Origin: a virus
Length of the DNA: 41,305 nucleotides
Strand: one strand, 5' to 3'
Virus record (IMG/VR): IMGVR_UViG_3300047408_000224
Coordinates: 1 to 41,305 of that record
Both the position numbers and the translations under genes were made by a program. The notes beneath the pieces were generated by a model, which saw only the letters and a list, made by a program, of their open reading frames with translations, was not told the DNA's origin and made no database searches. This document shows, in pieces, positions 715-41,305 of this stretch (within the stretch, counting starts at the first letter, position 1; the number at the start of each line of letters is the position of its first letter).

Positions 715-905
715 TGCCCGCGCCGATCCTCCTGAAGAAGAAGGACGCGGCCGCCGCGCTCGGCATGAGCCTGGACCACTTCAACCGCCACGTGCACCCC
801 TACGTCAAGGTCGTGTACTCCGGGCAGCTGCACCTCTACCCGGTACGAGACCTCGAGCGGTGGGCGAACGAGCAGGCGAGCATCGGTGGCCGTGCCGCAG
901 CCTGA
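714..905 (+). CDS. xis: Excisionase-like helix-turn-helix protein
   Basis: The protein has 63 residues. After a basic start (LLKKKDAAAALGMS) comes an AlpA/MerR-type winged helix-turn-helix, then the wing-like LYPVRDLERWANEQ that is typical of phage excisionases and helix-turn-helix 17 proteins. It overlaps the integrase start by about 20 bases, the usual xis-int arrangement. It probably binds the attP arms to direct excision. Family and position support this; the specific role is inferred. It lies near the end of the early operon, so it would be made on induction. Confidence 0.75.
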   Translation: MPAPILLKKKDAAAALGMSLDHFNRHVHPYVKVVYSGQLHLYPVRDLERWANEQASIGGRAAA

Positions 906-2175
906 GGAGTACCTTCGGCGCGTGGCCGGCCGCGACACGAAGACGAAGACCCAGGGCGTGTACGCCCGCCACAAGACCGGATGCCCGGTGCAGCTCGACG
1001 GCAAGGGCTGCGCCTGCAAGCCGACGTACTACGGCAAGGTCTACGACCGGGCGACGAAGCGGCACCGGCCGACGAAGCGGTACGCCACCGTGAGCGCCGC
1101 GGCGTCCGCCCGCCGGACGCTCGCCGGTGAGGTCGAGCGCGGCGAGACCCCGGCCGGTGAGGTTCTGCGCGTCAAAGATGCGTGCGAACGATTCTCGGAC
1201 GCAATCCGCGACGGCCGCGCACTGAACAAGCACGGCAGGCGCTACAAACCGACCGCGGTCAAAGACGTGACCGAGTGCCTGAAGGTCCACGTCGTCCCCG
1301 TCCTCGGCACGCGCCGCCTGGCAGACGTGCGCCGCGGCGACGTCCAACGGCTCATCGACGACCTCACCCCGCGGCTCTCCGGGTCGCGCGTCCGATCGGT
1401 CGTGAACGCGATCCGGTCGCTCTACCGGTGGGCGGTCATGCGCGACCTCGTCACCGCTGACCCAGCGGCCCGCGTCCTGCTCCCCGCGATGGACGCCACT
1501 CCGCGCGACCGCGTGGCCACACCGCTTGAGATGGAGACGCTGCTCCGCACGCTCGTCGACAACGACCAGGTCGCCGACGCCCTCCCGTACGCGCTCGCGG
1601 TCTACGCGATGGGGCGCCGCGCCGACATCCAGCGTCTGACGTGGGGTCAGGTCGACCGCGACCTTGGCCTTGTCGCGTGGGCCGACGGCAAGACGAAAGC
1701 CGCGACGCGGGTCGTGCCCGCCCCCAAGCCGCTGCGAGCGCTGCTGCTCCGTGCGTGGGGCGCCGCGGGCAAGCCCGGCCCGGAGGCGAAGGTGTGCCCG
1801 CCAATCCGTGACGTCGGGACCCGCCTGCTCGAGACGGGGTCGCTGGCGAAGCGCGCTCGCATCGGGTGGGGGTGGGAGCTCGGCGAGGACCGCGTCACGT
1901 GGACGAAGGCACGCCCGGACGCGCTCGAGCCGATCGGCTTGCACGAGTGCCGGCACACCGCCGCGACGTGGCTCGACCACGCGGGAGTGTCCCCGAAGAT
2001 CGCCTCCGTTCTGATGGGGCACGAGACGCCGGAGCGGCAGCCAGGCGCGGCGCACCTGACGCTCAGCACCTATACCCACGCGCTGCCCGACGAGTTCGAA
2101 CGCGCTCGTCGTACGCTGGACGCGTACATCGCAGATCGGATACGGGAGGCTCGTCGCAGTGCCAATGACGCGTGA
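886..2175 (+). CDS. int: Tyrosine integrase
   Basis: A 429-residue phage integrase that joins attP with a tRNA-Ser attB. Residues 1-85 carry a Cys-containing arm-binding type domain (GCPVQLDGKGCACKP). About 95-200 is the SAM-like core-binding domain, and 210-415 the catalytic domain. Visible catalytic residues are Arg244 or Arg245 (GRRADIQRLTW), Lys269 or Lys271, His353 and Arg356 (HECRH), His379 (MGHE) and the nucleophile Tyr396 (LSTYTHA). The GTG at 886 or the one at 892 could start it; both overlap xis. attP lies 430 bases downstream, beyond an HNH gene. Length and motifs are complete. Confidence 0.95.
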   Translation: MAVPQPEEYLRRVAGRDTKTKTQGVYARHKTGCPVQLDGKGCACKPTYYGKVYDRATKRHRPTKRYATVSAAASARRTLAGEVERGETPAGEVLRVKDACERFSDAIRDGRALNKHGRRYKPTAVKDVTECLKVHVVPVLGTRRLADVRRGDVQRLIDDLTPRLSGSRVRSVVNAIRSLYRWAVMRDLVTADPAARVLLPAMDATPRDRVATPLEMETLLRTLVDNDQVADALPYALAVYAMGRRADIQRLTWGQVDRDLGLVAWADGKTKAATRVVPAPKPLRALLLRAWGAAGKPGPEAKVCPPIRDVGTRLLETGSLAKRARIGWGWELGEDRVTWTKARPDALEPIGLHECRHTAATWLDHAGVSPKIASVLMGHETPERQPGAAHLTLSTYTHALPDEFERARRTLDAYIADRIREARRSANDA

Positions 2176-2609: not shown

Positions 2610-2634
2610 GTTCGTTCCCTCTGCCGTTCCCCCG
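2610..2634 (+). repeat. Arm-type repeat, left of att core
   Basis: 25 bases matching 2851-2875 in the same orientation with two mismatches. Each copy holds two CGTTCCC words. The copies stand either side of the tRNA-like core, where an integrase arm domain would bind, so they are read as P and P' arm sites. Confidence 0.65.
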
Positions 2635-2673
2635 AGATAGTCAGCCCAGTGTTCATGGGCTAGGATCAGGCAA

Positions 2674-2739
2674 GCGGGCGGTCTCGAAAACCGTTGTGCG
2701 GTGTAAGCCGTACCCAGGGTTCGAATCCCTGTCTCTCCG
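2674..2739 (+). other. attP: attP core: 3' part of tRNA-Ser(CGA)
   Basis: This is the last two thirds of a tRNA-Ser. The anticodon arm has loop CTCGAAA (anticodon CGA). It is followed by a long variable arm (GTGCGG pairing with CCGTAC), a perfect T arm (CAGGG TTCGAAT CCCTG), and the 3' acceptor strand TCTCTCC plus discriminator G. The matching 5' acceptor strand and D arm are absent upstream, so this is not a working tRNA gene. It is the identity block that restores the host gene on integration. Only one copy exists in the window, so the genome shown is the unintegrated form. The exact crossover point cannot be seen. Confidence 0.88.
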
Positions 2740-2785
2740 CTGTTTGCAGGGATCGCCAGTCACAGTGGGCGATCTCGACCGTGAG

Positions 2786-2830
2786 CGAACCGTCCAGTCG
2801 CGTACGGACTGTGCAGCAACGGACTGCAAC
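2786..2830. promoter_or_regulatory. Cluster of operator-like / Xis-like half sites in attP
   Basis: ACGGACTG occurs at 2804-2811 and again at 2819-2826, 15 bases apart in the same orientation. A related inverted word, CGAACCGTCCAG, lies at 2786-2797. The 9-mer AACGGACTG reappears inverted in the repressor switch at 29226-29234. The spacing suits phased binding by Xis or IHF, or by the repressor. Which protein binds is not knowable from the sequence. Confidence 0.45.
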
Positions 2831-2850
2831 GAAACGCAACCGTCAGGCCG

Positions 2851-2875
2851 GTTCGTTCCCCCAGCCGTTCCCCCG
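2851..2875 (+). repeat. Arm-type repeat, right of att core
   Basis: Second copy of the 25-base direct repeat at 2610-2634 (23 of 25 identical), again with two CGTTCCC words. It ends eight bases before a putative promoter for the conversion genes, so integrase bound here could interfere with that promoter. Confidence 0.65.
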
Positions 2876-26110: not shown

Positions 26111-26155
26111 GACCTGGCCTCACCTGTGCGAGAGGGGGGACGGTGTGCTTCGAGG

Positions 26156-26227
26156 TGGCGCAGCCCGGAAACGAACCGGGGTCTCAGCGACATGAACGCT
26201 GCGTGGGAGCCTCTCCACCACTGCGCG
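26156..26227 (-). tRNA. tRNA-Met-like (anticodon CAT)
   Basis: A 72-base cloverleaf: acceptor CGCGCAG with CTGCGCC (six of seven pairs; C1-C72 mismatch), D stem GTGG/CCAC, anticodon stem CAGCG/CGCTG with loop TTCATGT, four-base variable loop, T stem CCCGG/CCGGG. No CCA is encoded in full (CCT follows the discriminator A). The anticodon stem lacks the three G-C pairs of initiators, so elongator Met or, if modified, tRNA-Ile(CAU). Oddities are T at the usual A58 in the T loop and the unpaired first pair. It lies between the sigma gene and the late genes. Confidence 0.7.
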
Positions 26228-26437: not shown

Positions 26438-27022
26438 CTACGCGGCGTCCATGAGGACCCTGAGTTTCCGGCGTGCGCGCATGATCGCGTTGTCGACGGT
26501 CTTCCGTCTACCGATCGCCTCATAGGCCTCCCCGGCGAACGCGTAGCGCTCCATGCACTCTCGCTCGAGGTCGCTCAGGGTGGCGATGCCGAGCAGCACC
26601 GTGCGGAAGCGCTCACGGCCGATGAGGATGTCGCACGGGTCGCGGGCCTCGTCGGTCAGCCATCCGCCGTCGAAGTCCTCGGCGTCGGGTTCTGCGGGGG
26701 CGTCGAAGCTGAGGGCGGTGTTCAGGGTCTCGTGCTTGCGACGGCGTGAGGCGTTCACGGCGTCGATCGCACGGCGACGCCCACAGAGGTCTGCGAACGT
26801 CCAGAACGATGCGCCGTGCCCGGGCTGGTAGTCGCGGGCGGCCTGGGCGATACCGAGACGAACCTCCTGCAGCAGGTCGTCCGGTTCGCCGCCGGCGATC
26901 CAGTACGAGCGTGCGATGTGGCGGGCGAGATGGTCGCAGGCAATCACGACCCCGTTCGTGTCCCCCGTCGCGAGCATGCGGCGGATGCGGGCGTCCCGAA
27001 GGTCGCGAACCTCGGTGGTCAT
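26438..27022 (-). CDS. Phage RNA polymerase sigma factor, SigH-like
   Basis: 194 residues. Region 2 spans about 25-95: ARSYWIAGGEPDDLLQEVRL, then ASFWTFADLCGRRRAIDAV with basic SRRRKH. Region 4 is at about 146-190: LSDLERECMERYAFAGEAYE, then AIGRRKTVDNAIMRARRKL. The wording follows Bacillus SigH (sigma-30) closely, including the SF..FA.LC helix, the RKH..LN..LSFD linker and SDLER...VDNA..R.KRKL. It is not an ECF of the RpoE type. It should direct host polymerase to specific phage promoters. It overlaps the gene before it by four bases, with the tRNA and all late genes downstream. Likely a late-gene activator. Confidence 0.85.
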   Translation of the reverse strand: MTTEVRDLRDARIRRMLATGDTNGVVIACDHLARHIARSYWIAGGEPDDLLQEVRLGIAQAARDYQPGHGASFWTFADLCGRRRAIDAVNASRRRKHETLNTALSFDAPAEPDAEDFDGGWLTDEARDPCDILIGRERFRTVLLGIATLSDLERECMERYAFAGEAYEAIGRRKTVDNAIMRARRKLRVLMDAA

Positions 27023-31216: not shown

Positions 31217-31452
31217 TTTTCCTGCAGCTCAAGCCGCCGACCGGCGGACCGCGGTACTTCTCCCCGGCACCCCAGGCCCGGACAGGGTCTGGGGACCGTC
31301 GGAGCGATCCTCGCGGCCCGGTCCATGAGTTCGACGCGCGCATGAACGCGCGTCCTCACACCACCCGCCTGCTCGTGCAGGCGATGAAGCGCCCCGACGG
31401 CACTCCACATGCCGCCGGGGCTGACCACCACCACCCAGTCAGGAGCCTGTGA
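31213..31452 (+). CDS. Hypothetical early protein
   Basis: 79 residues from GTG 31213 (GTGA overlap). Pro/Arg/Gly/His-rich, likely disordered except for ARPHTTRLLVQAMKRP. Low-complexity composition makes it less certain than its neighbours, but it bridges them with overlaps at both ends. Confidence 0.5.
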   Translation: MIFLQLKPPTGGPRYFSPAPQARTGSGDRRSDPRGPVHEFDARMNARPHTTRLLVQAMKRPDGTPHAAGADHHHPVRSL

Positions 31453-32003
31453 TGGCCGTCGTCGAAACGCTACTCCCCGCTGCCCCAGAGACACCGGCAA
31501 GATCACGCGAGCAGCGCCTTTCCGCGCTCGAGCACGCCAACCGCATCCGCCTGTACCGGGCGTCGGTCAAGCGCGCGCTCATCAGCCGCGAGCTGGACAT
31601 CGTGACGATCCTCTCCGGGTCCGCGTACGAGGACGCGTTGCTCACGACCATGAAGGTCCGCGACCTCCTCGGCTCCGTGCCGCGGCTCGGCGACGTGCGC
31701 GTGGAGGCGGTCATGAGGAAGGTGAAGATCGCCCGCGGCAAGACCATCGGCGGCCTGTCGGTCAGGCAGCGCGAAGAGCTGTGGCTCGAGATGAACCGCG
31801 TCATGACCGGCGGGAAGATCCCGACAGGGCCGCGGCCGGGGAGCCTGCCGAATGCGAACGGCACCATCACGGTCGAGAAGATCAACGACGACATCGTGTT
31901 CACGATGCGGTGGCGGTCCGGGGCGATGGCGAGCTCGTCGCTCACCCGGCGCGCGGCTCTCAAGTTCGCGGACTCGATCGCGCAGCTCGGTGAGGAGGCG
32001 TGA
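31452..32003 (+). CDS. Phage-encoded actinobacterial integration host factor (mIHF-like)
   Basis: 183 residues. About 22-118 follows mIHF/sIHF residue by residue: a long basic helix (LSALEHANRIRLYRASVKRA), the conserved MKVRDLLGSVPRLGDVRVEA helix-turn-helix, and IARGKTIGGLSVRQREEL equivalent to the IA..RRLRGLG.RQR end of mIHF. After the DNA-binding part comes a 60-residue extra domain (TITVEKINDDIVFTMRWRSG) not found in host mIHF. Mycobacterial mIHF is a cofactor of L5 integration; a phage copy could assist its own integrase, replication or packaging. ATG 31452 is chosen over the GTG one codon upstream. Confidence 0.85.
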   Translation: MAVVETLLPAAPETPARSREQRLSALEHANRIRLYRASVKRALISRELDIVTILSGSAYEDALLTTMKVRDLLGSVPRLGDVRVEAVMRKVKIARGKTIGGLSVRQREELWLEMNRVMTGGKIPTGPRPGSLPNANGTITVEKINDDIVFTMRWRSGAMASSSLTRRAALKFADSIAQLGEEA

Positions 32004-32851
32004 TGCCCGCCACCGCCGCGAAGGTCAACGGCTCCCCGGCGGTCGAGGACCGCTTCCCCGTCGACTCCTTCAGGGACGCGGCCACGCACCTCCGTCGCCC
32101 GTTCGCCGCCAACGCCGTGAAGTTCAAGGTCCAGTCGTCGTTCCCGAAGGAGGACCCGAAGACCGGCCTGATCGTCGCGTACATGGACGCGCGCCTGGTC
32201 GTCGACCGGCTGAACCTCGTGTGCCCGCACCTGTGGTTCGACGAGTACCAGCAGATCGACGGCAAGCTCATGATGTGCAAGCTCACCGTGGACGGCATCA
32301 GCCGCCGCGACGTGGGGGAGGGCACCGGGAAGGGCCTGTACTCCGACGCGCTCAAGCGGGCCGCCGTGAAGTTCGGGATCGGCGTGTCGCTCTACGCAAT
32401 CCCGCAGGTGTTCCTGAAGATCCAGGACGGCCACCTCAAGCCCGTCAGGACGAGCAAGGGGCCGAGCGTCGTCATGAAGGACGCCGGCGAGCGTCGCTGC
32501 CGCGAGCTCTACGCCCAGTGGCTCGCGCAGCACGGCATCGAGAAGTTCGGCCGGCCGCTCGACCACGGTGACGCTGAGGGCGCGCAGGGCGACTACGAGG
32601 CCGAGGCGACACAGCACCCGGACCCCGCTGAGGACGTCGCCGGCCCGGTTGTGACCGACAGGCCGCTGACTGAGGACGAGCAGGCCCGGATCGTGCAGGC
32701 GTTTCAGTACGCCGGGCTCGGCCCGGCTCAGATGGCGATGTTCCTCGCCGCCTGCGGTCTATCGGACATCACGGAGTTGACCGTCGCGACCGCGTACGAC
32801 CTTCGGTCCCGGCTGGATGCGCACATCGCGAAGCAGGGGGGCGCGTCATGA
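32003..32851 (+). CDS. Rad52-family single-strand annealing protein
   Basis: 282 residues. The N-terminal 170 have the Rad52/Sak pattern: RRPFAANAVKFKVQSSF, DARLVVDRLNLVCPHLWFD, RRDVGEGTGKGLYSDALKRA followed by AVKFGIGVSLY, the signature helix-turn of Rad52_Rad22 annealing proteins. The rest is an acidic linker and a small helical domain (DEQARIVQAFQYAGLGPAQM). It anneals ssDNA in phage recombination. Adjacent exonuclease completes a Red-like pair. A GTG one codon upstream is an alternative start. Confidence 0.88.
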   Translation: MPATAAKVNGSPAVEDRFPVDSFRDAATHLRRPFAANAVKFKVQSSFPKEDPKTGLIVAYMDARLVVDRLNLVCPHLWFDEYQQIDGKLMMCKLTVDGISRRDVGEGTGKGLYSDALKRAAVKFGIGVSLYAIPQVFLKIQDGHLKPVRTSKGPSVVMKDAGERRCRELYAQWLAQHGIEKFGRPLDHGDAEGAQGDYEAEATQHPDPAEDVAGPVVTDRPLTEDEQARIVQAFQYAGLGPAQMAMFLAACGLSDITELTVATAYDLRSRLDAHIAKQGGAS

Positions 32852-33708
32852 CGACCACGACGACCACCGACCTCGGCGGCACCGTAGTCGAGCGCGACAT
32901 CCCCGGTGTCGGACTGCTCCGGTTCGAGGACTTCGCCCCGGGCCAGTGGCTCACGCAGAAGGGCACCTTGGCGAAGAAGTCCAAGCGCCGGTACGCGATC
33001 GGCGATACGGAGTACGACTCGGTCTCGTCGATCGTCGGCACCCTCGACAAGCCCGCGCTCGTGAACTGGGCCGAGGACCACGGGGCCCGCGGCGGCGCCG
33101 CCGCACAGCGCATGGGCGAGCTCGACGGGGTCCCCGAAGAGGAGATCATTGAGCGGGTCCGCCTGCTCGGGCTCGGCGCGTCGGCGAAACGCGACGGGGG
33201 CGCAGACCGCGGCCACGCGATCCACGCGGCGTTTGAGTCGCTCGCCCGCTTCGACATGCTCCCCAAGCGCGAGGCACTGCCGCAGGCTTGGTGGCCGTGG
33301 CTTCAGGGGTGCGCCGGCGCGTGGCTCGAGCTCGCCCCGTCCCCGGTGGAGATCGAGGACATGGTCGCGCACCCGTTGCTCGGGTACGCGGGCCGCCCTG
33401 ACCTCGTCGCGCGGGTCGACAACGCGCTGACGCTCATCGACTACAAGACGGGCAAGGGCAAGGTCTATGACCAGGCGCACTACCAGACGCGCCTGTACGA
33501 GATGGCGCGTGTCGCGTGCGGCCTGACCCCGGTCGACCGGATCGTGATCGTCGGGATCGACGACCAGGGCGGATACCAGCTCGTCGAGTGCGAGGCCTCC
33601 GAGCAGGACGCGCTCTGCCTGCTGCACACCTTCCGCTCTCGAAAGCGGATCAACGCCGGGATGGCCGCGCAGCGCAAGGCGCTGAAGGCCGGAAAGGGGG
33701 CCCGATGA
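32848..33708 (+). CDS. PD-(D/E)XK exonuclease (Cas4/RecB-like)
   Basis: 286 residues. Motifs of the phage exonuclease branch: RGHAIHAAFE with His123, GRPDLVARVD with Asp185, LIDYKTGKG with Asp198 and Lys200, and QTRLYEMA with Gln213 for the QhxxY element. No iron-sulfur cysteine cluster is evident, unlike Cas4. It should resect DNA ends 5' to 3' to feed the annealing protein encoded just upstream with a four-base overlap. Confidence 0.88.
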   Translation: MTTTTTTDLGGTVVERDIPGVGLLRFEDFAPGQWLTQKGTLAKKSKRRYAIGDTEYDSVSSIVGTLDKPALVNWAEDHGARGGAAAQRMGELDGVPEEEIIERVRLLGLGASAKRDGGADRGHAIHAAFESLARFDMLPKREALPQAWWPWLQGCAGAWLELAPSPVEIEDMVAHPLLGYAGRPDLVARVDNALTLIDYKTGKGKVYDQAHYQTRLYEMARVACGLTPVDRIVIVGIDDQGGYQLVECEASEQDALCLLHTFRSRKRINAGMAAQRKALKAGKGAR

Positions 33709-37466: not shown

Positions 37467-38035
37467 CCGAAGCCCCGAGATCGGGCAGCACGCGCGAAGT
37501 GCAGAAGCTTCGGCAGGCGCTACGCGAGGTCGTGAAGTTGGCCGACGCGCCCTGGTCACCAGAAGGCGAGCATCTGCGCCTACGGGCGATCCGGAGCGTG
37601 GCGACGAACGTGCTACCCGCCCGCCGCACTGAAGAGGACTGGCCGCTCGGCCGGTGCATGGAGTGCGACGCCCACCACAACCGCGTCCGCGAGGCCATCG
37701 GCAACGAGAGCGGTGGCGGCTTCCCGATGTGCGAGGAGCACCTATGGACCGAACACACACCTTCGGGCAGCACGACGCTCGCGCCCGAGCTCAGCGCCGA
37801 AGACGTTCGCGTCCTCCGGATCTTCCCCCCGCATTCCGCGGCCGGCCTCCGCCACCACACCCTTCGCGAACGCATCGCCACCGCGAACACCCCGCTCCCC
37901 TGGCTCACCGTCATGGGCCTACGCCACCTCGGCTACGTCGCTCGATACAACGGGTGGTGGAAGCGCACCGCCGCCGGCGACACCTACCTCCACCATCTCG
38001 ACGCGCCACCGGCGCCACAGGAGACCCTCGCATGA
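37463..38035 (+). CDS. Putative DNA-binding protein with zinc knuckle and winged helix
   Basis: 190 residues. Helical start (VQKLRQALREVVKLADAPWS), a Cys/His knuckle (CMECDAHHNRV to MCEEHLW) and a C-terminal segment (LSAEDVRVLRIFPPHSAAGL to MGLRHLGYVARYNGWWKRT) with the form of a winged helix. Probably binds DNA; it directly precedes the second recombinase (four-base overlap) and might be its accessory factor. Confidence 0.6.
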   Translation: MTEAPRSGSTREVQKLRQALREVVKLADAPWSPEGEHLRLRAIRSVATNVLPARRTEEDWPLGRCMECDAHHNRVREAIGNESGGGFPMCEEHLWTEHTPSGSTTLAPELSAEDVRVLRIFPPHSAAGLRHHTLRERIATANTPLPWLTVMGLRHLGYVARYNGWWKRTAAGDTYLHHLDAPPAPQETLA

Positions 38036-38943
38036 AGACCGCCGTCGTCATCCGCGACCAGCTCGCCCTGGACTGGTCGACCCCCGAGGAAGTGCTCGAC
38101 GCCGTCCCGGTGATCGAGAAGAAGCGCCCACCGTCCAAGCCCCGCCCCCGTCGACCCGTCACCGGGACGATCGTCGAAGAGCCGACGAAGCCGAACCTCA
38201 CGCTCGTCCGCGCCGAGCCCGTCACGGGGGAGATCCTTCTCGACCGTCGCGGCCTCCCGCGCACCAGGGCGACGATGCCCGGCGCCGGCCGCGGACGCCG
38301 CCCCGTCACGAAAGGACGCGAGTACCCGCCGGACCCGATGACGTCGAAGGAGATCGACGCGATGCTCCGCTACCTCGCGGAGCCCCGGAACAAGTACGAG
38401 ACCCGCCACGGCCACACGTCCCGCATCCGCCTCCGTGCGCTCATCGCGCTCCTGTGGCGGTCAGGTCTCCGTATCAGCGAGGCGCTCGACCTCGAGCCGC
38501 GCGACCTGCAGCGCGAGCACTTCTGCCTCACCGTCCGGCACGGCAAGGGCGACAAGCGCCGCATCAGTGCGATGGACGAGTGGGGATGGAAGATGCTCGA
38601 GCCGTGGCTCGAGGTCCGCGCCGACATCGAACGCGGCCCCGTGTTCTGCGTCGTGTCGGGTGTCTCCGCCGGGATGCGCTGGTCGAGCGCCGACGTCCGC
38701 CGCCAGCTGAAGAACACCGCGCTCGCCGCCGGCGTTCAGCGCCGCGTGGCCCCGCACCAGTTTCGGCACGCGCACGCAGCTGACCTGTACCGCGAGAAGG
38801 TCGACGTGTTCGTCGTGCAGCGGCAGCTGGGTCACGCCCGCCTGGACATCACGGCGCATTACCTCTCGTCGATCGCGCCGGTCGAACTGCTGGAGCCGAT
38901 AGGTCGCCGCAAGGCGCCGCAGATGCCGGTCACGACGCTCTGA
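38032..38943 (+). CDS. Second tyrosine recombinase
   Basis: 303 residues. Complete catalytic set: Arg147 (SGLRISEAL), Lys172 (HGKGDKRR), His242 and Arg245 (HQFRHAHA), His268 (QLGHARLD) and Tyr277 (ITAHYLS). The catalytic domain begins at about 103. Residues 1-100 are Pro/Arg-rich and disordered, with a twice-repeated PVTG phrase, so the usual core-binding domain is missing. This matches a widespread actinobacterial group of recombinases. It is unlike the integrase at 886. Roles could be dimer resolution or exchange of the neighbouring gene cassettes. A longer upstream frame is rejected, since ATG 38032 overlaps the preceding stop. Confidence 0.9.
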   Translation: MKTAVVIRDQLALDWSTPEEVLDAVPVIEKKRPPSKPRPRRPVTGTIVEEPTKPNLTLVRAEPVTGEILLDRRGLPRTRATMPGAGRGRRPVTKGREYPPDPMTSKEIDAMLRYLAEPRNKYETRHGHTSRIRLRALIALLWRSGLRISEALDLEPRDLQREHFCLTVRHGKGDKRRISAMDEWGWKMLEPWLEVRADIERGPVFCVVSGVSAGMRWSSADVRRQLKNTALAAGVQRRVAPHQFRHAHAADLYREKVDVFVVQRQLGHARLDITAHYLSSIAPVELLEPIGRRKAPQMPVTTL

Positions 38944-40203: not shown

Positions 40204-40565
40204 ATCTCAACCCCTCAAGGCGCGTCATCAGGTCAGAGGTGGAAGGCCGACGTGACGTTGCGCGCGAGCGTCGGTACCAGGAACGCTACGCCAGGCGGCA
40301 CGGGTACTTCTGGATGCCCTGCCCGCTCTGCTCGGAGATGTTCGGTGGGCACGAGTGGCGCGGCAGCGGCCTGCCCGACTCCCACCGCGAAGGTACGGAG
40401 CATGGCATCTGTCCTCGCTGCACAGGAGAGCGGCAGCGGGCCGCTGAGCGGCACCTGCGCGAGCTCGGCCGGTCGTACACCTTCACCACGAGCAGGTGGG
40501 GAAGCGACCAGGTGACCCATCGCGTCGGGACCGATCCGATGAACCCGAAGGGGGTTACGTCGTGA
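40200..40565 (+). CDS. Zinc-ribbon miniprotein (complete copy)
   Basis: 121 residues from ATG 40200 (ATGA overlap). A basic start (RRVIRSEVEGRRDVARERRY), then HGYFWMPCPLCSEMFGGHEW and GICPRCTGERQRAAERHLRE: two CxxC knuckles with an aromatic/His insert, a type common in actinophages. Its last 90 bases are repeated at 1-90. Function unknown. Confidence 0.75.
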   Translation: MNLNPSRRVIRSEVEGRRDVARERRYQERYARRHGYFWMPCPLCSEMFGGHEWRGSGLPDSHREGTEHGICPRCTGERQRAAERHLRELGRSYTFTTSRWGSDQVTHRVGTDPMNPKGVTS

Positions 40566-40577
40566 GCCCATCGGACG
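40476..40577. repeat. Terminal overlap repeat, right copy (exact)
   Basis: Identical to bases 1-102. The copies part at 40578, inside the fifth or sixth codon of the gene at 40562. Confidence 0.95.
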
Positions 40578-40804
40578 ATTCTGTGGCTTCGATTCCGCCC
40601 GCCCGCGACGCTCTCGCAGCGGCGGCGATCATCGTCGGGAGCCTGCTCGCAAGGCAGCCCGAGTGCCGTGAGTGGCTCGATGACCTGATCGAGAAGCAGC
40701 ACCTCACGTTCCGTGGGGCGGACGCGATCCAGGCGGCCTCGCGGGCGATCATGCGCGAGGTCGATCAACCCATGTCGGTGATCGGGAGGCTCGACCATGA
40801 GTGA
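40562..40804 (+). CDS. 80-aa hypothetical protein, right-allele specific
   Basis: GTG 40562 overlaps the previous stop. Helical (ARDALAAAAIIVGSLLARQP, IQAASRAIMREVDQPMSVIG). Codons 5-9 (DDSVA) share a 15-base word (40574-40588) with the start of the next gene (40803-40817). In the left copy of this locus only its first codons remain (87-122). Function unknown. Confidence 0.68.
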   Translation: MSPSDDSVASIPPARDALAAAAIIVGSLLARQPECREWLDDLIEKQHLTFRGADAIQAASRAIMREVDQPMSVIGRLDHE

Positions 40805-41177
40805 CGATTCTGTGGCTCCGCTCACGGACGCGGAGGCTGAGGCGATGCTGGATCGCCTGGCCCGGCATTACGGTGAGCCCGTGCGCCCGGTGAGCGTCTA
40901 TTGCGACGCCTTCCGGGCATGGGGCAAGGCGCTCCAAGACCGCGAGGAGGAGGGCACCCAGCGCGACCGGGGGCTCGACGACGCCCGCGCCGCCATGAGG
41001 GTCCTGATGAACGGCATCGCCATTGGCAAGTCTTCGATGCTCGGGCGACTCATCTACGACGGCGAGAAGCTGCGGACCGAGAAGTGCCCGGTGCACAAGG
41101 GCGTCTGGTCGGGGATCGGCCACTGTGAGTACGGCTGCGATCACACCGGATGGCTGCCTGCTGAGGTCGAATCGTGA
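40797..41177 (+). CDS. 126-aa hypothetical protein, right-allele specific
   Basis: ATG 40797 overlaps the previous gene by eight bases. Acidic start with DDSVAPLTDAEAEAMLDRLA, central helices, and a C-terminal CPVHKGVWSGIGHCEYGC finger ending in a Trp motif. Absent from the left copy. Function unknown; the finger suggests nucleic-acid or protein binding. Confidence 0.7.
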   Translation: MSDDSVAPLTDAEAEAMLDRLARHYGEPVRPVSVYCDAFRAWGKALQDREEEGTQRDRGLDDARAAMRVLMNGIAIGKSSMLGRLIYDGEKLRTEKCPVHKGVWSGIGHCEYGCDHTGWLPAEVES

Positions 41178-41305
41178 CCCCGCAATCGGGCATATCGGCT
41201 GCTGACGTCATCCGCGATGTCGCGTACGGCGACCTGAAGTACTACCCCGGCAGGAGCGAGGCCGGGGCACGGGCTGTGATCGACGCCCTCAGGGCCGCTG
41301 GCTTC
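41174..41305 (+). CDS. Partial gene, second copy of the 415-714 gene
   Basis: The first 44 codons, cut by the window end. GTG start with GTGA overlap where the left copy has ATGA; codons 4-5 read Q-S instead of L-P, all else identical. It shows that the window has returned to its own start. Confidence 0.85.
   Translation, partial: MTPQSGISAADVIRDVAYGDLKYYPGRSEAGARAVIDALRAAGF
41175..41305. repeat. Terminal overlap repeat, right copy (near exact)
   Basis: Matches 416-546 with three adjacent mismatches, up to the last base of the window. Confidence 0.95.

Follow-up and report, generated by a model that had tools for sequence, protein, structure and literature searches.

Integration host factors (IHFs) of actinobacteria have a long connection with phages, mIHF having been discovered as a host factor required by phage L5. 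The window analysed here, the whole 41,305-base stretch of a virus record carrying terminase, portal, head, tail and integrase genes, raises the question of why a temperate phage would also encode an IHF-like protein of its own, and one extended by a further domain. We examined the gene, its neighbourhood, its relatives and the attachment site of the phage. Features are collected in Table 1.

Table 1. Predicted features discussed in the text, with coordinates in the window.
Feature	Coordinates	Strand	Evidence
Tyrosine integrase near attP	886..2175	+	phrog_1 E 3.9e-40; PF00589, PF22022
attP-like region	2610..2875	.	tRNA-Ser 3' end core 2676-2741 between 25-nt direct repeats
Ribosome-binding site AGGAG, IHF gene	31441..31445	+	Read from sequence, 6 nt upstream of ATG
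IHF-like gene with C-terminal extension, 183 aa	31452..32003	+	NF041260 71.4 bits; H2TH_5; AlphaFold model vs sIHF/mIHF
IHF domain, residues 15-118 (N-terminal helix and S13-like H2TH domain)	31494..31805	+	pLDDT; superposition on sIHF 6bek
C-terminal added domain, residues ~131-183 (antiparallel strands, then one helix)	31842..32000	+	Single-sequence model, pLDDT ~90
Rad52/Erf-like single-strand annealing protein	32003..32851	+	PF04098 27.7 bits (cut-off 20.3); phrog_1097 E 1.8e-20
PD-(D/E)XK exonuclease	32848..33708	+	PF12705; phrog_298 E 1.9e-29
Second tyrosine recombinase	37654..38943	+	PF00589 E 1.5e-28; phrog_216; true start probably further in; same rightward early region

The predicted product contains an actinobacterial-type IHF domain

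The open reading frame runs from an ATG at 31452 to a stop codon at 32001-32003. Both ends given in the first-pass annotation are correct. The frame is preceded by a ribosome-binding site, and its GC content per codon position (0.63/0.49/0.92) is like that of other genes of the same phage genome. A sigma-70 consensus scan found no promoter near the gene, which is the expected outcome in DNA of 69% GC.

Residues 18-113 match the NCBIfam model NF041260 (actino_IHF) with an E value of 7e-20, above its curated cut-off of 60 bits, and residues 51-111 match Pfam H2TH_5 (43.1 bits, cut-off 27). Sequence matches to solved structures included mIHF (6tob, E 1e-8) and sIHF (4itq, E 3e-7). In a full-length AlphaFold model of the 183-residue protein, made with an alignment of 46 sequences, pLDDT across the IHF domain was mostly 92-98 with a single block at 84, and the predicted domain superposed on DNA-bound sIHF (6bek) with Z 14.4 and an rmsd of 1.7 Å over 92 residues (Foldseek E 4.8e-6). 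The likeness to the DNA-binding part of mIHF and sIHF, originally read from the letters, was thus borne out by both profile search and structure prediction, and the presence of a predicted actinobacterial-type IHF/H2TH domain is confirmed beyond chance.

Over residues 24-116 the phage protein shares the IHF/S13-like H2TH fold of sIHF from Streptomyces coelicolor (SCO1480; 4itq, 6bek) and mIHF of Mycobacterium (6tob) at about 31% identity, with Z 14 against sIHF, but it differs in its length of 183 residues, its added C-terminal domain, its changes at three near-invariant basic positions and its being encoded by a phage. Because 69 residues follow the domain and NF041260 is an equivalog-domain model, we regard the protein as a two-domain variant that carries an IHF domain and not as an ordinary IHF.

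Basic residues were compared with those of 111 chromosomal host IHFs. R22, R33, R36, K40, K68, R83 and K97 are kept in the phage protein, whereas three positions, each basic in 92% or more of the chromosomal set, are replaced (K/R28 by H, K44 by I, and K/R81 by D, the last adjoining the invariant G80). These changes suggest that the DNA contacts of the phage IHF may be weaker or different, and DNA affinity or preference may be altered as a result.

The C-terminal extension is unusual among IHFs

The first-pass annotation described an added domain of 60 residues, which is a fair description: the tail after the IHF domain is 69 residues long, compared with a maximum of 23 and a median of 3 in a set of 127 further IHF domains taken from genomes, plasmids and viruses. 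Residues 119-130 are linker-like. Residues ~131-183 gave a pLDDT near 90 when modelled alone from a single sequence, but were poorly predicted within the full-length model (pLDDT blocks of 46-77), so their fold is treated here as hypothetical.

Relatives of the C-terminal part were sought in several ways. The family libraries searched gave no sequence-family match, and the part alone gave nothing credible against phages (best E 1) or against 232 genomes of the likely host order (best E 0.003, 37% identity over 43 residues). A plasmid match covering it (H34, E 0.08) was dropped as chance; the hypothetical protein concerned is encoded next to genes of type IV conjugation type. Foldseek returned no structural match at E 0.001. 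When a second aligner was applied to the chains that Foldseek proposed, the top of the list consisted mostly of PUR-alpha and PC4/Sub1 single-strand-binding chains (Z 4-5.8, 3.5-5 Å), which is the range of common structural arrangements and makes the likeness a lead only. An AP2-like arm-binding fold had also been suspected; the structure lists contained no AP2-like chain, a result that leaves such a fold possible. From the model, the C-terminal domain could be a PC4/PUR-like single-strand-binding module, in which case the fusion would be a dual double- and single-strand DNA protein organising phage recombination intermediates; we consider this improbable.

The gene is predicted to be coupled to an annealase/exonuclease cassette

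As had been proposed from the letters, the IHF gene lies directly ahead of a Rad52/exonuclease pair in an operon-like arrangement, and the identity of the pair is given by Pfam and phrog matches. The annealase start overlaps the IHF stop (TGATG) and its ribosome-binding site, GAGGAGG, lies inside the IHF gene, while the exonuclease start overlaps the annealase stop. The IHF gene is thus, as judged from these overlaps, translationally coupled to the Rad52-like annealase, followed by the exonuclease. Host contamination was considered as a source of the gene and ruled out, as its flanks are phage recombination genes and not guanylate kinase; in the likely host order, a guanylate kinase gene was read from the sequence downstream of a canonical IHF gene (L108).

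A related virus contig, L002, has an annealase with 53% identity and has the exonuclease and further early genes in common with the phage, and no IHF was found across its 53.6-kb record. Likewise, none was found within 8-14 kb around Rad52 at four loci of the host order. The IHF gene therefore looks as if it had been added to a cassette that already existed.

Elsewhere in the window, a tRNA-Met gene (anticodon CAT, 26154-26227) and a gene resembling an RNA polymerase sigma factor (26438-27022; phrog_1740, E 1e-8) are both on the minus strand. The ends of the record are related to each other: positions 1-109 match 40476-40586 and positions 416-546 match 41175-41305 at 98% identity, and the DNA between differs. 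This arrangement (1-546 and 40476-41305) looks like the product of either a tandem duplication or the closing of a circular genome across a variable stretch.

The phage IHF groups with those of one actinomycete order

Alignment-seeded scans of the viral collection turned up four further IMG/VR contigs with an IHF (L089, L092, L093 and L094), whose identity to the phage IHF over the matched part is 43%, 40%, 32% and 37%, respectively. In a tree, the phage IHF, these four and the IHFs of a single actinomycete order formed one clade (support 100/100) set apart from the other sampled actinobacterial IHFs, and a second tree with other long branches left out recovered the same clade, again at 100/100. 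The closest cellular relatives are canonical chromosomal IHFs of that order (e.g., L106 and L109), which share 43-45% identity with the phage protein, its best values, but are without the added domain. Branching inside the clade is poorly settled and the phage IHF is on a long branch, so descent is claimed from the clade and not from a given gene. L094 groups with the second, divergent IHF paralogue of the order (98/92), which tentatively suggests more than one viral capture of host-order IHF, as long branches meet at this point of the tree.

Two observations independent of IHF point to the same order. The attP core is identical at 66 of 66 bases to a tRNA-Ser in one of its genomes (G461), and relatives of the phage Rad52 with 45-48% identity occur in four. 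The likely host is therefore a member of this little-studied actinomycete order, in the phylum Actinomycetota (the phylum of Catenuloplanes).

IHF is encoded in each of the 61 genomes sampled from the order, in 59 with a score above the family cut-off and in 54 as two or three copies. The second paralogue is present in most and scores mostly below the cut-off (about 38-60 bits; e.g., L110-L112). G461 has a third, weak IHF-like frame (L129, 7755-8108, 33.5 bits) that was left out as evidence; a fragment resembling the second recombinase of the phage is found some 4 kb away from it, and it may belong to a mobile element. IHF genes are also common on large plasmids of actinobacteria, chiefly those of Rhodococcus and Streptomyces, with 74 plasmid records matching sIHF.

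The predicted attachment site has recognisable arms and a core

An attP at 2610-2875 had been read from the sequence, and its layout was upheld. Two 25-nt direct repeats (2610-2634 and 2851-2875), 92% identical and 241 bases apart from start to start, stand at the ends of a 266-bp region with the tRNA-Ser core between them. Attachment sites of bivalent integrases, which depend on the DNA being bent between arm and core, are laid out in this way; the repeats are the presumed binding sites of the integrase here. The attP regions of lambda and L5 are listed as 240 bp long and use the host factors IHF/Fis and mIHF, respectively (PMC4111918). mIHF stimulates L5 integration without sequence preference for attP, and its bending of DNA likewise has no sequence preference (PMC3724605).

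The phage has two different tyrosine recombinase genes, one beside attP and one in the early region (Table 1). A relative of the latter is found about 5.5 kb from a Rad52-like gene in L125 (genome G408 of the host order).

Other phage-encoded IHFs lack the extension

IHFs encoded by phages have been annotated already, in Saccharomonospora phage PIS 136 (PIS_028, "integration host factor MihF") and in the metagenomic siphoviruses ctqBc4 and ctjbm8 ("Integration host factor MIHF"). These proteins are short (95-137 residues, compared with 183 here), and PIS_028 falls outside the clade of the phage IHF and just under the family cut-off. The IHFs of L089 and L092, which are above the actino_IHF cut-off, and more distantly those of L093 and L094, resemble the phage IHF in being viral and in the same clade, but are 113-143 residues long, are without the added domain and have varied neighbourhoods. 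The L089 gene overlaps a tyrosine recombinase gene by four bases, and that of L093 is near resolvase-like and primase-like genes (read by eye). No match to tyrosine integrase (PF00589) was found in the IHF-bearing records L092, L093 and L094, which may be fragments.

Single-sequence peptide scans of the viral and genome collections returned no relative of the phage IHF; such scans are seeded with short peptides and may miss copies. An alignment of eight IHFs was dropped as a scan seed for being too divergent. Searches by tblastn of 50,697 phage records with the phage IHF or sIHF likewise returned none, and only the L089 protein reached PIS 136. Phage IHFs are thus easily overlooked, and little can be concluded from their absence in lists of this kind. 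We found no paper describing what a phage actinobacterial IHF does in the literature searched, which was without most subscription journals. Phage-encoded IHF is therefore known by annotation, while the extended two-domain form appears to be new within the searches made, as do the predicted ties to the host order and to the cassette.

Possible roles of the phage IHF

The first-pass annotation had suggested that the gene could free the phage from the host supply of IHF. This proposal was weakened by host gene content: with IHF in every sampled genome of the order, and at least two copies in 54, a need for the phage's own supply is unsupported. Among integration, replication, packaging and competition with the host protein, the annealase/exonuclease neighbourhood favours recombination. 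We give about an even chance to the reading that a host-derived actinobacterial IHF was taken into the phage's own recombination cassette, as a specialised extra IHF and not as a replacement for a factor that the host lacks. Like mIHF, the IHF domain would bind and bend double-stranded DNA of the phage with low sequence specificity, and the added domain would provide a second contact, whether to DNA, to a second subunit or to another phage product, for instance the annealase. The protein could shape the phage DNA during recombination-dependent replication or repair, and may also bend DNA within the attP intasome. Counted against this reading are the absence of the added domain and the varied neighbourhoods of the other viral IHFs, together with the changes at positions 28, 44 and 81.

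A serious rival, if an unlikely one, is that the protein is a dedicated integration factor that bends attP between core and arm sites for the integrase intasome, as mIHF does for L5. The attP of the phage, with repeats on both sides of its core and a length near that of lambda and L5 (PMC4111918), would suit such a role, as would the overlap of the L089 gene with a recombinase gene. However, the gene sits in the annealase/exonuclease cassette and not in the int/attP module, host IHF would always be available, and three of the other viral records have IHF without an integrase match, although these may be fragments. Taken together, the neighbourhoods of these genes make a role limited to integration less likely than a wider involvement in phage DNA transactions.

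The cassette position also argues against a rather improbable alternative drawn by analogy with phage Lsr2, in which the altered IHF would compete or mix with host IHF and so shift host or prophage transcription. Actinobacterial phages do carry host-derived Lsr2 and WhiB homologues (PMC8612146, PMC7074111), and changed conserved basic positions would fit an altered partner, but such a role for a phage IHF was absent from the literature searched. Finally, the gene may have been acquired from the host by chance and kept as an accessory of no important role, as the cassette without IHF in L002 and related loci and the long branch of the phage IHF would allow. This is the least probable of the readings considered, since the frame is intact with a normal codon pattern, a good ribosome-binding site and overlap coupling, the protein is a composite with a second domain, and IHFs of the same clade occur in four other viral contigs. 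On the sequence evidence, shaping DNA during phage recombination, and perhaps at attP too, is a likelier function than freeing the phage from the host supply.

Significance for phage biology

Actinobacteriophage Lsr2 and WhiB are likewise DNA-binding regulators captured by phages from their hosts, although their protein families are unrelated to IHF (PMC8612146). A phage lineage with a captured and extended host IHF would be a further case of a nucleoid protein, like Lsr2, drawn into phage biology. If the C-terminal domain were a PC4/PUR-like module, the phage would have an IHF fusion co-translated with an annealase and an exonuclease, of a sort not met in descriptions so far. The link to the annealase and exonuclease, along with an attP with recognisable arms, makes the phage IHF amenable to assays of both recombination and integration; the host order, with its two paralogues, offers a natural comparison for it.
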